Positions 3,186-5,877 of a DNA stretch of 7,235 bases are shown in pieces. The first letter of the stretch is position 1, and each line of letters begins with the position of its first letter. The notes below the pieces were generated by a model. The model searched no databases, was not told the origin of the DNA, and saw only the letters and a program-made list of their open reading frames with translations. The stretch covers positions 1 through 7,235 of the forward strand of contig JALGVQ010000145.1 in assembly GCA_025774615.1 (NCBI GenBank), in the 5' to 3' direction. Position numbers and translations under genes: made by a program. The stretch is from a bacterium (GTDB lineage: Bacteria > Blakebacterota > Blakebacteria > Blakebacterales > Blakebacteraceae).

Positions 3186-3392
3186 CGGCGTATTGAGTTC
3201 CCTGGTGTCCAGTGAGTATTTCCAGGCGGAATGACCATACCGGAATCATGCCCTGGCGAAAAGGGGAAGCACGGTACAACACTTCAGGCTATACTGGCGG
3301 CTGTGGGGTTTGACGACGCCAGGCCGGTGAGGTTCAGGAATCCCGATCCCGTCCCGCAGGCCGCGCTCGACAGTGAGGTGGTGATCGCCTTG
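3186..3392. promoter_or_regulatory. divergent intergenic region (permease / lipoprotein)
   Basis: These 207 bases separate the starts of two divergent genes, so promoters for both must lie here or slightly inside. The + strand frame stays open back to 3231, but the upstream residues do not look like a protein N-terminus before a lipoprotein signal. On the minus strand a TTTTCG then 17 nt then TATGGT arrangement, reading from about 3262 down to 3234, is a weak sigma70-like candidate for the permease operon. No clear operator or riboswitch was seen. Confidence 0.4.
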
Positions 3393-4142
3393 ATGAGGAT
3401 GCTCCGAACGATCCGACCTGTATCTTTCTGTTCAACACTGCTGATAATTAGCCTCTTCGCTGCCGGTTGCAGTGATGGATCCCCATCCGATCCGGGATCT
3501 GAACTCAACGATCCCGACTTCCTATTCGAAGAACGGTTCAGCAGTATTCCTGACGGCGGTCTTCCCTCAGGCTGGACCATCGTGACCCAGGAGGGGGCCA
3601 CCCTGGAGGGGCCGGCGGAATGGTCGGTCAGCTCGGGCGCGCTCCACCAGGCCTCGAACGTGCAGGCCCCGCCCACGCAGGGTCTACCCTATGCGATGCA
3701 TTATGAGGGGACGATGGCGATCTATGGTGAGGAATGGATCAATATCGCCTTCAGCGCCGATATGACTCCGCGGGATGATGACGGGATCGGCGTGGTGTTC
3801 CGCTGGCGGGAGTCAGATGTGAGCAGCGATGGCGATTTTTACCGGTTCCTGATGGTACGGGACCAGACGAGTGGTGGCCCGAGGATACGGGTGGATAAGC
3901 ATGTTGATGGGGTATGGACCATTCTGGCACAGGATCTTTCAACGGAATACCAGTACACCGAAAATCACACATATCGAGTGACGGTGGAGATGGCGCTCAC
4001 GCAGATCACCGTCAAGCTGGATGGTGAGAAACTGTTCGAACTGCTCGATGCAAGCATCCCGAGCGGGAAGATCGGATTCTTCTGCTACGCCGAGGAGGGC
4101 GCTGACTTCGATAACATCACCGTCTACCGGCGCGGCCCTTAG
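3393..4142 (+). CDS. lipoprotein with concanavalin A-like jelly-roll domain
   Basis: The product, about 249 residues from the ATG at 3393, begins MRMLRTIRPV with a hydrophobic stretch and a lipobox SLFAAGC (Cys at residue 26), followed by an acidic/Ser/Pro linker (SDGSPSDPGSELNDPD). It should be lipidated and anchored in the envelope. The rest (about residues 41-247) looks like one beta-sandwich of the concanavalin A-like/DUF1080 type: FEERFSS at the start, an EWSVSSGALHQ strand, DDDGIGVVFRW, DFYRFLMVRD, TYRVTVEMALTQITVKLDGEKLFE and a closing GADFDNITVYRRG. Such folds often bind or cleave glycans; no catalytic residues can be assigned, so a binding or structural role is as likely. The frame is open to 3231, but the lipoprotein signal argues for 3393, 3399 or a TTG/GTG just upstream (GAGGTG at 3375-3380). 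The stop codon TAG lies inside the adjacent repeat element. Confidence 0.8.
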   Translation: MRMLRTIRPVSFCSTLLIISLFAAGCSDGSPSDPGSELNDPDFLFEERFSSIPDGGLPSGWTIVTQEGATLEGPAEWSVSSGALHQASNVQAPPTQGLPYAMHYEGTMAIYGEEWINIAFSADMTPRDDDGIGVVFRWRESDVSSDGDFYRFLMVRDQTSGGPRIRVDKHVDGVWTILAQDLSTEYQYTENHTYRVTVEMALTQITVKLDGEKLFELLDASIPSGKIGFFCYAEEGADFDNITVYRRGP

Positions 4143-4166
4143 TGCCCTGTCACGCAACAACCGTCG
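4140..4166 (+). repeat. left terminal inverted repeat of the palindromic element
   Basis: This 27-base end matches the reverse complement of 4277-4303 at 22 of 27 positions, with the best blocks at the outer end (TAGTGCC, then TGTCA) and the inner end (ACAA.CGTCG). The first three bases are the stop codon of the lipoprotein gene. Confidence 0.7.
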
Positions 4167-4276
4167 CCTTCGAGCGGCGCCGTATCCCGACCGGCTACGT
4201 TGCGCCTCCTCGCCATAGCCACCGCTATGCCTCGTCGCCACGCCTTGCCGGTCAAGCACGGCGTTACTCTCGGTAC

Positions 4277-4303
4277 CGACGTTTGTCACCTGACATGGCA
4301 CTA
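4277..4303 (-). repeat. right terminal inverted repeat of the palindromic element
   Basis: This is the inverted partner of 4140-4166. It differs at five positions, among them an A for C in the outer TAGTGCC(C/A)TGTCA motif. It abuts, and shares two bases with, a further copy of that motif at 4302-4314. Confidence 0.7.
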
Positions 4304-4314
4304 GTGCCCTGTCA
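4291..4314. repeat. 24-bp near-perfect palindrome at the element's right edge
   Basis: The arms TGACATGGCA (4291-4300) and TGCCCTGTCA (4305-4314) pair at 9 of 10 positions around a central CTAG, which could form a hairpin. No run of T follows on either strand, so it is not a standard intrinsic terminator, although convergent genes end on both sides. The last three bases, read on the minus strand, are the TGA stop of the aldehyde dehydrogenase gene. Confidence 0.75.
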
Positions 4315-5877
4315 GCGCAGCCCGGGGATCCTCCTGAGGAGTTTCAGCAGGAAGGTGAGCAAGCGATGAAACTTCTCTTCGCTCCAGCCTTTCGGGGGCC
4401 CGACCGGCAACAGGCGCTGTATGGCGATCGACCGGTTCTCGGTGTACTTGATGATCCCCGCAGTTCCGTGACGACGCCCCAGTCCTGAGGCTTTGAATCC
4501 CCCCTGCGTCATGCCGGCAGATCCCCAGGTCGCCCGATATGAATCGTTGATGTTGATCGTTCCTGCCATGAGCCGGGAGGCCAGGCGGTAGCCGAGGCGG
4601 GTGTCACGTGTCCAGAGGGAGGCGTTCAACCCGTACGGGCTCTCATTGACCAGTTCCACCGCTTCATCCGTCGATGAGAAGGGATGGATGCTCACCACCG
4701 GCCCGAAGGTCTCCTCGGAATGAAGGGCCATCTCACTGGTGACACCGGTAAGGATCGTCGGCTCGAAGAAGAGTGGTCCGATATCAGGGCGTGGCTTTCC
4801 GCCGGCAAGGAGAGAGGCTCCGCGAGCAACAGCGTCCTCGACGTGTTCGGTCACTTTATCGAACTGTTCCCGGGATATCAGTGACCCCATGTCGAATTCA
4901 TAGCCCAGAGAAGCGCCCATTTCAAGACGGCCTGTCTCCTCGACCAGGTGCCGGGTGAATTCATCCATCACCGATTCATGCACGTAGAGTCGTTCGATGG
5001 AGACGCAGAGCTGGCCGGTGGAGGAGAAGCAGTCCCAGACCGCGACCCGTGCCGCCTTTTTGAGATCGGCGTCGGCAAGCACCACCATGGCGTTCTTCCC
5101 GCCCAGTTCCATCGTGCAGCCGATCAGGTGTTCACCCGCCTGTCCGGCCAGCAGTCGGCCTGTCGCCGTGCTTCCGGTGAAGGCGAGGTAATCGATCTGA
5201 TCGATCATGGGGCCGGCCAGTTCTGAACCCCGTCCGGTGACGATCTGAAAGAGATCGGTCGGCAGTCCGGCCTGGTAAAGGAGATCCGCCCCTTCGAGCG
5301 CGGTAAACGGGGTGAGCCTGTCCGGTTTCACGATCACCGCGTTACCTGCCATCAGTGCGGCTACGGCATCGGAGATCGAGAGCGAGAGAGGATAGTTCCA
5401 CGGCGAAATGAAACCGACAAGTCCGTACGGCGGAAACTGTTCCACGGCCCGTGTCAGCAGCGGGAAGACGCCCTTCCGTCGTTTCGATCTGAGATGTCGG
5501 CGCGCGTGGAACGCGTAGTACCGTGCCATGATCGCGATGTCACCCAGTTCCTCATAGGCATGGTTGCGCGCCTTGCCGGTCTCGAGCTGGATGATATCGA
5601 GGATCTCTTCCTCACGCTTCCAGACCAGGTCGTGGAAGCGAAGCAGTATCCGGGCCCGTTCCCTGAACGATCGTTCCGCCCAGTGGTGCTGGGCGTCCCT
5701 GGCCCTGCGAACCGCCTCTTCGACATCGACTCCCGTACACATCGGCAGAGTGCCGATACTCTCCCCGGTAAAGGGGGTAGTGACGGTCAGCGTCTCCCGC
5801 TCTCCGTCGACAACAGTGACCCGGCGAGCCAGGCGTTCAAGGAATGCCTGGTCGATAACGGCGGATCGTTCGATCAT
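4312..5877 (-). CDS. gabD2: NAD(P)-dependent aldehyde dehydrogenase, GabD2-type (succinate-semialdehyde dehydrogenase-like)
   Basis: This 521-residue enzyme belongs to the aldehyde dehydrogenase superfamily and oxidises an aldehyde to a carboxylate in the cytoplasm. The active-site set is complete: FISPWNYP (N161), VKPD (K184), the cofactor loop FTGSTATG (G235), general base E257 in MELGGKN, nucleophile C291 in TGQLCVSIER, and E389 in SEETFGPVV. The wording around these sites (ELGGKNAMVVL, GQLCVSIERLYV, DMGSLIS, the end of a SGLGRRHG run) resembles the GabD2-type succinate-semialdehyde dehydrogenases of actinobacteria as I recall them; substrate and NAD/NADP preference are not proven. A slightly extended C-terminus (about 490-521, basic and Leu-rich, ending FLLKLLRRIPGLR) is amphipathic and might touch the membrane. 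The ATG overlaps the cyclophilin stop as ATGA (5874-5877), and GAGGA lies directly against the start, implying reinitiation. The TGA stop is supplied by the adjacent repeat. Confidence 0.9.
   Translation of the reverse strand: MIERSAVIDQAFLERLARRVTVVDGERETLTVTTPFTGESIGTLPMCTGVDVEEAVRRARDAQHHWAERSFRERARILLRFHDLVWKREEEILDIIQLETGKARNHAYEELGDIAIMARYYAFHARRHLRSKRRKGVFPLLTRAVEQFPPYGLVGFISPWNYPLSLSISDAVAALMAGNAVIVKPDRLTPFTALEGADLLYQAGLPTDLFQIVTGRGSELAGPMIDQIDYLAFTGSTATGRLLAGQAGEHLIGCTMELGGKNAMVVLADADLKKAARVAVWDCFSSTGQLCVSIERLYVHESVMDEFTRHLVEETGRLEMGASLGYEFDMGSLISREQFDKVTEHVEDAVARGASLLAGGKPRPDIGPLFFEPTILTGVTSEMALHSEETFGPVVSIHPFSSTDEAVELVNESPYGLNASLWTRDTRLGYRLASRLMAGTININDSYRATWGSAGMTQGGFKASGLGRRHGTAGIIKYTENRSIAIQRLLPVGPPKGWSEEKFHRLLTFLLKLLRRIPGLR
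5874..5877 (-). other. ATGA stop/start overlap coupling cyclophilin and dehydrogenase
   Basis: The minus strand reads GGCGAGGAATGATCG. TGA ends the cyclophilin gene and the overlapping ATG begins the dehydrogenase gene. The purine-rich GAGGA directly abuts the start codon, too close for ordinary initiation, so termination-reinitiation is the likely way the second gene is translated. Confidence 0.75.

Follow-up and report, generated by a model that had tools for sequence, protein, structure and literature searches.

Positions 4142 to 4301 of the window (the whole 7,235-nucleotide stretch analysed here) hold a 160-bp element whose entire length is one imperfect palindrome. Our preferred reading, held at a probability of roughly 0.7, is that it is a non-autonomous transposon of the MITE type, for which a DDE transposase acting in trans provides the movement. 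Its features are those of MITEs: it is short, lacks coding capacity, has terminal inverted repeats and exists as dispersed copies with common ends. It represents a new family of a known kind of element, close in behaviour to the Correia/NEMIS, ERIC and RUP repeats, and less usual in its REP-sized derivatives and in the concerted change of both arms along the whole length. It is a dominant short repeat family of a phylum with four genomes in the collection.

Position, fold and pairing of the element

The original prediction had placed a compact palindromic block at 4140-4314. The palindrome stands, but its limits move: alignment of 27 full-length copies, together with size classes that have common ends, fixes the element (plus strand, full-length class of subfamily A) at 4142-4301, with a TA on either side. 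The left TA (4140-4141), identified from flank statistics and the stop-codon table, lies in the preferred C-TA-G context; the right one (4302-4303) is identified from flank statistics. The final 11 bases of the predicted block (4304-4314) are part of another, incomplete element end, TAGTGCCCTGTCA (4302-4314, plus strand), which is a direct repeat of 4140-4152 and adjoins the first element. Adjoining tandem copies are also present at loci L023 and L027. The 27-bp terminal inverted repeats are as claimed, with 22/27 matches between 4140-4166 and the reverse complement of 4277-4303. Within the element they read GTGCCCTGTCACGCAACAACCGTCG on the left (4142-4166, plus strand; direct reading and end-motif counts) and, as minus-strand sequence, GTGCCATGTCAGGTGACAAACGTCG on the right (4277-4301; direct reading and genome counts). 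The other predicted parts were also located, all on the plus strand: the inner arm GACCGGC (4189-4195), in helix 4, pairs with GCCGGTC (4247-4253), according to direct reading and pairing analysis, and the copy alignment places the apical hairpin CATAGC-CACC-GCTATG at 4214-4229. The element is gene-free, in line with the predicted lack of a transposase in the block.

The block folds into one continuous hairpin of -74.6 kcal/mol, compared with -50.2 +/- 3.6 in dinucleotide shuffles (z -6.7, matched by 0/200 shuffles). Its symmetry is far beyond chance. The hairpin of the window copy (56 pairs) forms in 86.9% of cells across the 27 full-length copies, in an alignment (A1) that omits the row of a false hit, L081. 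Changes on both sides of a pair are found at 27 of the 56 pairs and in 101 cells; shuffles give 33.9 such cells, and sliding the partners by 1-3 columns gives 10-31. Much of this signal is the difference between subfamilies A and B, hence fewer independent events than cells. Several pairs vary inside one subfamily, and columns 77/93, the outer pair of the apical hairpin, are C-G, A-T, G-C or T-A among copies. The symmetry is thus kept in other copies through compensatory changes. A transposase that reads both ends would be expected to cause paired change close to them. It would not lead one to expect paired change in the interior, which implies either selection on the folded strand or template switching between the arms. 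In two full-length copies of the sister species (L154 and L153) another palindrome stands in place of the apical hairpin, through replacement or alteration, and the remainder is kept.

The window copy sits between two convergent stop codons. The upstream gene (3231-4142, plus strand), with a weak 3-keto-disaccharide hydrolase-like match, has its TAG stop completed by the element, from the TA at 4140-4141 and G4142. The stop codon of the convergent aldehyde dehydrogenase gene (4312-5877, minus strand; PF00171, E 5.9e-139) is formed by the final three bases of the partial end 4302-4314. Such a location, and compensatory changes that extend along the full stem, even into interior helices for which a transposase has no use, are what a conserved structured RNA or bidirectional terminator selected in place, and dispersed only as a by-product, would lead one to expect. 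We consider this improbable: template switching between arms could give paired changes without selection, no Rfam covariance model matches up to E 1 in 4000-4450, and the sites are not conserved between species. A preference for terminator positions, or a dedicated terminator role, was also rejected, since the copies lie in 37 tandem, 12 divergent and 7 convergent gene contexts, a distribution in keeping with that of intergenic gaps in general (162, 33 and 23). A transcribed copy of the transposon that we favour would fold into a stable hairpin in the RNA, and this may terminate or process neighbouring transcripts, as a side effect and not as its reason to exist.

A long imperfect hairpin whose structure is kept while its sequence changes also recalls the attC-like recombination sites of integrons or tyrosine recombinase systems. 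The copies, however, stand singly between ordinary genes and not in cassette arrays, and direct reading reveals no RYYYAAC/GTTRRRY core boxes at the element ends, which makes such an origin highly improbable.

Copies, subfamilies and size classes

In the genome that contains the window (G000; 3.3 Mb, 82% complete) the block has 34 matches, and ten of these cover nearly its full length with 87-100% identity. About ten full copies thus occur there, together with short classes of 23-24, 33 and 64 bp. The end motif GTGYCMTGTCACG is found at 101 places in this genome with at most one mismatch, against 10 for the reversed motif, and the right terminal inverted repeat has 26 near copies against 0 for the reversed pattern. 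Dozens of copies are present in 4/4 genomes of the phylum (one family, two genera; 63-85% complete, in hundreds of contigs each), and the repeat is absent from 56/56 genomes searched outside it. The prediction of a lineage-specific family that recurs in the genome and is conserved between relatives is borne out; in place of a single-copy, unconserved block with a symmetry kept nowhere else, we find dispersed copies that maintain their pairing. A search of viral contigs for the exact element end returned none, and a genome-collection search with the element end matched only the metagenome-assembled genome Meg22_46_Bin_213 (G001). Guaymas Basin hydrothermal sediment is the origin of other Meg22-prefixed genomes (PMC10553843), and this sediment is likely the source of G001.

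Two subfamilies have a homologous core in common. Subfamily A has the ends GTGCCCTGTCA.. / ..TGACATGACAC; G000, G001 and G002 carry it, in size classes of 23-24, 33, 64, 70, 105 and 160 bp; subfamily B, with ends GTACACCGTTCCG.. / ..CGGAGCGGTGCAC, occurs in G002 and G003 in classes of 32, 68, 108, 161 and 242 bp. Within each subfamily the classes have common ends. The possibility that the two end types are unrelated was rejected, their first 22 bases being identical at 13/22 positions in the alignment; judged from this comparison they are diverged homologues in which both arms changed in concert. With its graded size classes and two co-diverging end types, the family is well suited to testing, in nature, whether repeats of the REP-like and MITE-like kinds can give rise to one another and what keeps long palindromes paired. 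In G002 (L124-L130) subfamily A ends lie mostly at contig starts or ends, as expected if near-identical copies break the assembly. One full G002 copy shares 93% identity with that of the window, with neighbouring genes only about 70% identical. These observations suggest a recent burst, or a transfer between genera.

The short forms probably arose by apex deletion, since their junctions coincide with brief direct repeats (GTCAC, CGT/CAT, GCCG) internal to the palindrome. The four copies of the 108-bp class, at four unrelated loci, have in common the private junction GATGTATTGTG and private substitutions, and one junction of the 68-bp class is common to three loci. Such junctions at unrelated loci imply that some short forms, those of 108 and 68 bp, spread as units. 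At the orthologous site G000:C268 / G001 L090 each species retains element remnants, but of unequal length, evidence that copies decay or grow in place; at one orthologous site 12 bp are left in G000, against a tandem 33-mer and 24-mer in G001. This last site and the junctions at direct repeats are compatible with the 24, 33 and 64 bp classes being in-place deletion products, only the longer forms moving. We regard this as possible but doubtful as a general account: besides the recurrent 108-bp and 68-bp forms, which argue against it, most 33-mers carry GTGGCAT or GTGACAT, rare among full copies.

Spread of the 24-33 bp forms is not readily explained by classic DDE transposition, and they could be deletion remnants instead. 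Another view would make the folded palindrome itself the mobile substrate, in units down to 24-33 bp, handled by a hairpin-processing enzyme with selection for pairing over the whole length, so that REP-sized and MITE-sized forms would make one continuous family. This is unlikely in our judgement; if correct, it would link two kinds of repeats thought to use different enzymes.

Mobility and insertion sites

In the sister species the site of the window copy lacks an insertion: both flanks are recovered at G001:C294, and the element is missing from the interval. G001 carries both neighbour genes at about 74% identity, and its upstream gene ends in TGA. Between the two genes G001 has about 1.5 kb (L104, G001:C294, 1166-2735) that are absent there in G000, with a minus-strand open frame resembling a transglutaminase-type protein. 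Copies near a glnB-like gene have different positions in G000 and G001. The copies are mobile: they occupy other sites from one species to the next, and short classes marked by private junctions reappear at unrelated loci.

A simple ORF caller assigns about 84% of this DNA to coding sequence, and 0/66 copies fall within a predicted gene. The false hit L081, the sole 'inside_gene' row of the gene-context table, is excluded from these 66 copies and included among the 47 subfamily A flank rows. Subfamily A copies are preceded by C-T-A and followed by T-A-G, those of subfamily B by C-T-N-A and T-N-A-G, respectively. In subfamily B a 3-bp TNA is duplicated on the two sides of one and the same copy, with 9/20 exact matches against 3.8 expected (p 0.003); 3 bp alone stands out among the duplication lengths tested at the element boundary, and a looser set that includes some false pairs gives 10/40 against 3.1 expected (p 0.0002). 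In subfamily A, to which the window copy belongs, agreement between the two flanking dinucleotides does not exceed that of shuffled pairs and so does not demonstrate a strict duplication.

The stop codon of a neighbouring gene overlaps or abuts the element in 26/66 copies, and these stops are mostly TAG, made of the flanking TA and the first G of the element. A special preference for stop codons beyond CTAG was rejected: 6/22 background non-coding CTAG sites also lie at stops, so that target choice, combined with the elimination of insertions that disrupt genes, is a sufficient explanation. Because the element begins with G, a TAG stop codon that receives it would be rebuilt as TAG, so that insertions at gene ends would be harmless and persist. 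The family is a clear example of how palindromic mobile repeats persist, intergenic and often at stop codons that are rebuilt on insertion.

Partner enzyme and related repeats

The mechanism we envisage begins with a DDE transposase of an unrecovered autonomous element, which would recognise the outer, roughly 12-16 bp, inverted ends. The enzyme would excise the element and insert it elsewhere, with duplication of TA at CTAG targets in subfamily A and of TNA at CTNAG targets in subfamily B. Short direct repeats within the palindrome would then promote apex deletion to shorter forms, of which at least those of 108 and 68 bp went on to spread as units. The 3-bp TNA duplication of subfamily B points to a DDE transposase. 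TNA and TA target duplications are typical of IS5-family groups (IS1031, IS427), and our best guess is that the partner is possibly an IS5-like enzyme; the likeness to this family lies in the TNA duplication, whereas no IS5-type transposase with these ends was found in the four incomplete genomes.

Three matches to PF01609 (IS4/IS5) in G000 are not flanked by element ends, and PF13340 (DUF4096) and PF13586 (DDE_Tnp_1_2) give only sub-threshold hits without such ends, the PF13340 hit in G003 overlapping a long open frame on the opposite strand. PF13358 (IS630, DDE_3) has matches in 0/4 of the incomplete phylum genomes. Around single-ended copies, 2-5 kb were searched for a distant second end and none was found, nor is there an autonomous copy with these ends among the loci examined in the four incomplete, fragmented genomes. 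The suggested check for a transposase gene flanked by the same ends was thus negative in these genomes; as they are 63-85% complete and in hundreds of contigs, this absence is weak evidence.

The original prediction of a non-autonomous mobile or REP-type family holds as regards a mobile, non-autonomous element. Its REP alternative, with a RAYT-like enzyme as mobilising partner, is disfavoured: PF01797 (Y1_Tnp) was found in 0/4 phylum genomes (63-85% complete) with control genomes positive, and subfamily B makes a TNA duplication. Movement of a REP/BIME-type repeat as a single-stranded hairpin by a RAYT-like Y1 transposase would account for the REP-sized 24-33 bp classes, intergenic and palindromic, and for the C-T-A or T-A-G context at the hairpin foot. 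Yet REPs carry a GTAG tag at one end only (PMC3733652), whereas here CTA and TAG are mirror images at both feet, with neither a one-sided GTAG nor a GGAG tag, and the full element measures 160 bp. We find this mode of movement quite unlikely. The family resembles REP/BIME repeats with RAYT in being short intergenic palindromes of high copy number that give RNA hairpins (PMC3733652, PMC2817692), and differs from them in its target duplication, in the absence of the one-sided GTAG tag and in that no Y1 transposase was found.

The likeness is closer to repeats of the MITE kind. Correia/NEMIS repeats of Neisseria have TA termini, inverted ends, long stem-loops and classes of 107 and 155 bp, the longer being almost exclusively intergenic (PMC2229807). 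Our family has in common with them a length of about 100-160 bp, inverted ends, terminal TA, a long stem-loop fold and length classes, but its sequence is unrelated and G+C-rich, it reaches down to 24-33 bp and one of its subfamilies duplicates TNA. ERIC/IRU/RU-1 of enterobacteria, a MITE-like repeat of 127 bp, likewise has TA at its termini and forms a stable hairpin as RNA (PMC2229807); it is unrelated in sequence, resides in another host phylum and falls in an A+T-rich class of elements. RUP of Streptococcus pneumoniae is a 107-bp non-autonomous element inserted at TA and thought to be moved in trans by the transposase of IS630-Spn1 (PMC2229807). The parallel extends to non-autonomy, TA target and movement in trans by an insertion sequence transposase; the partner of RUP is known by its common ends, whereas none was found here.

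Two minor observations complete the description. Positions 1-240 of the window are strikingly A+T-rich relative to the remainder of the contig. Both genera also contain another family of palindromic repeats, AGGAGCCTGYCGG..ACGACAGGYTCCT (L027 and L082 in G000, L175 in G003, L212 in G002). Its GGAG-type foot resembles a REP tag, and one member is lodged in a 242-bp copy of the main family, at the apex (L175, G003:C242:992-1233).
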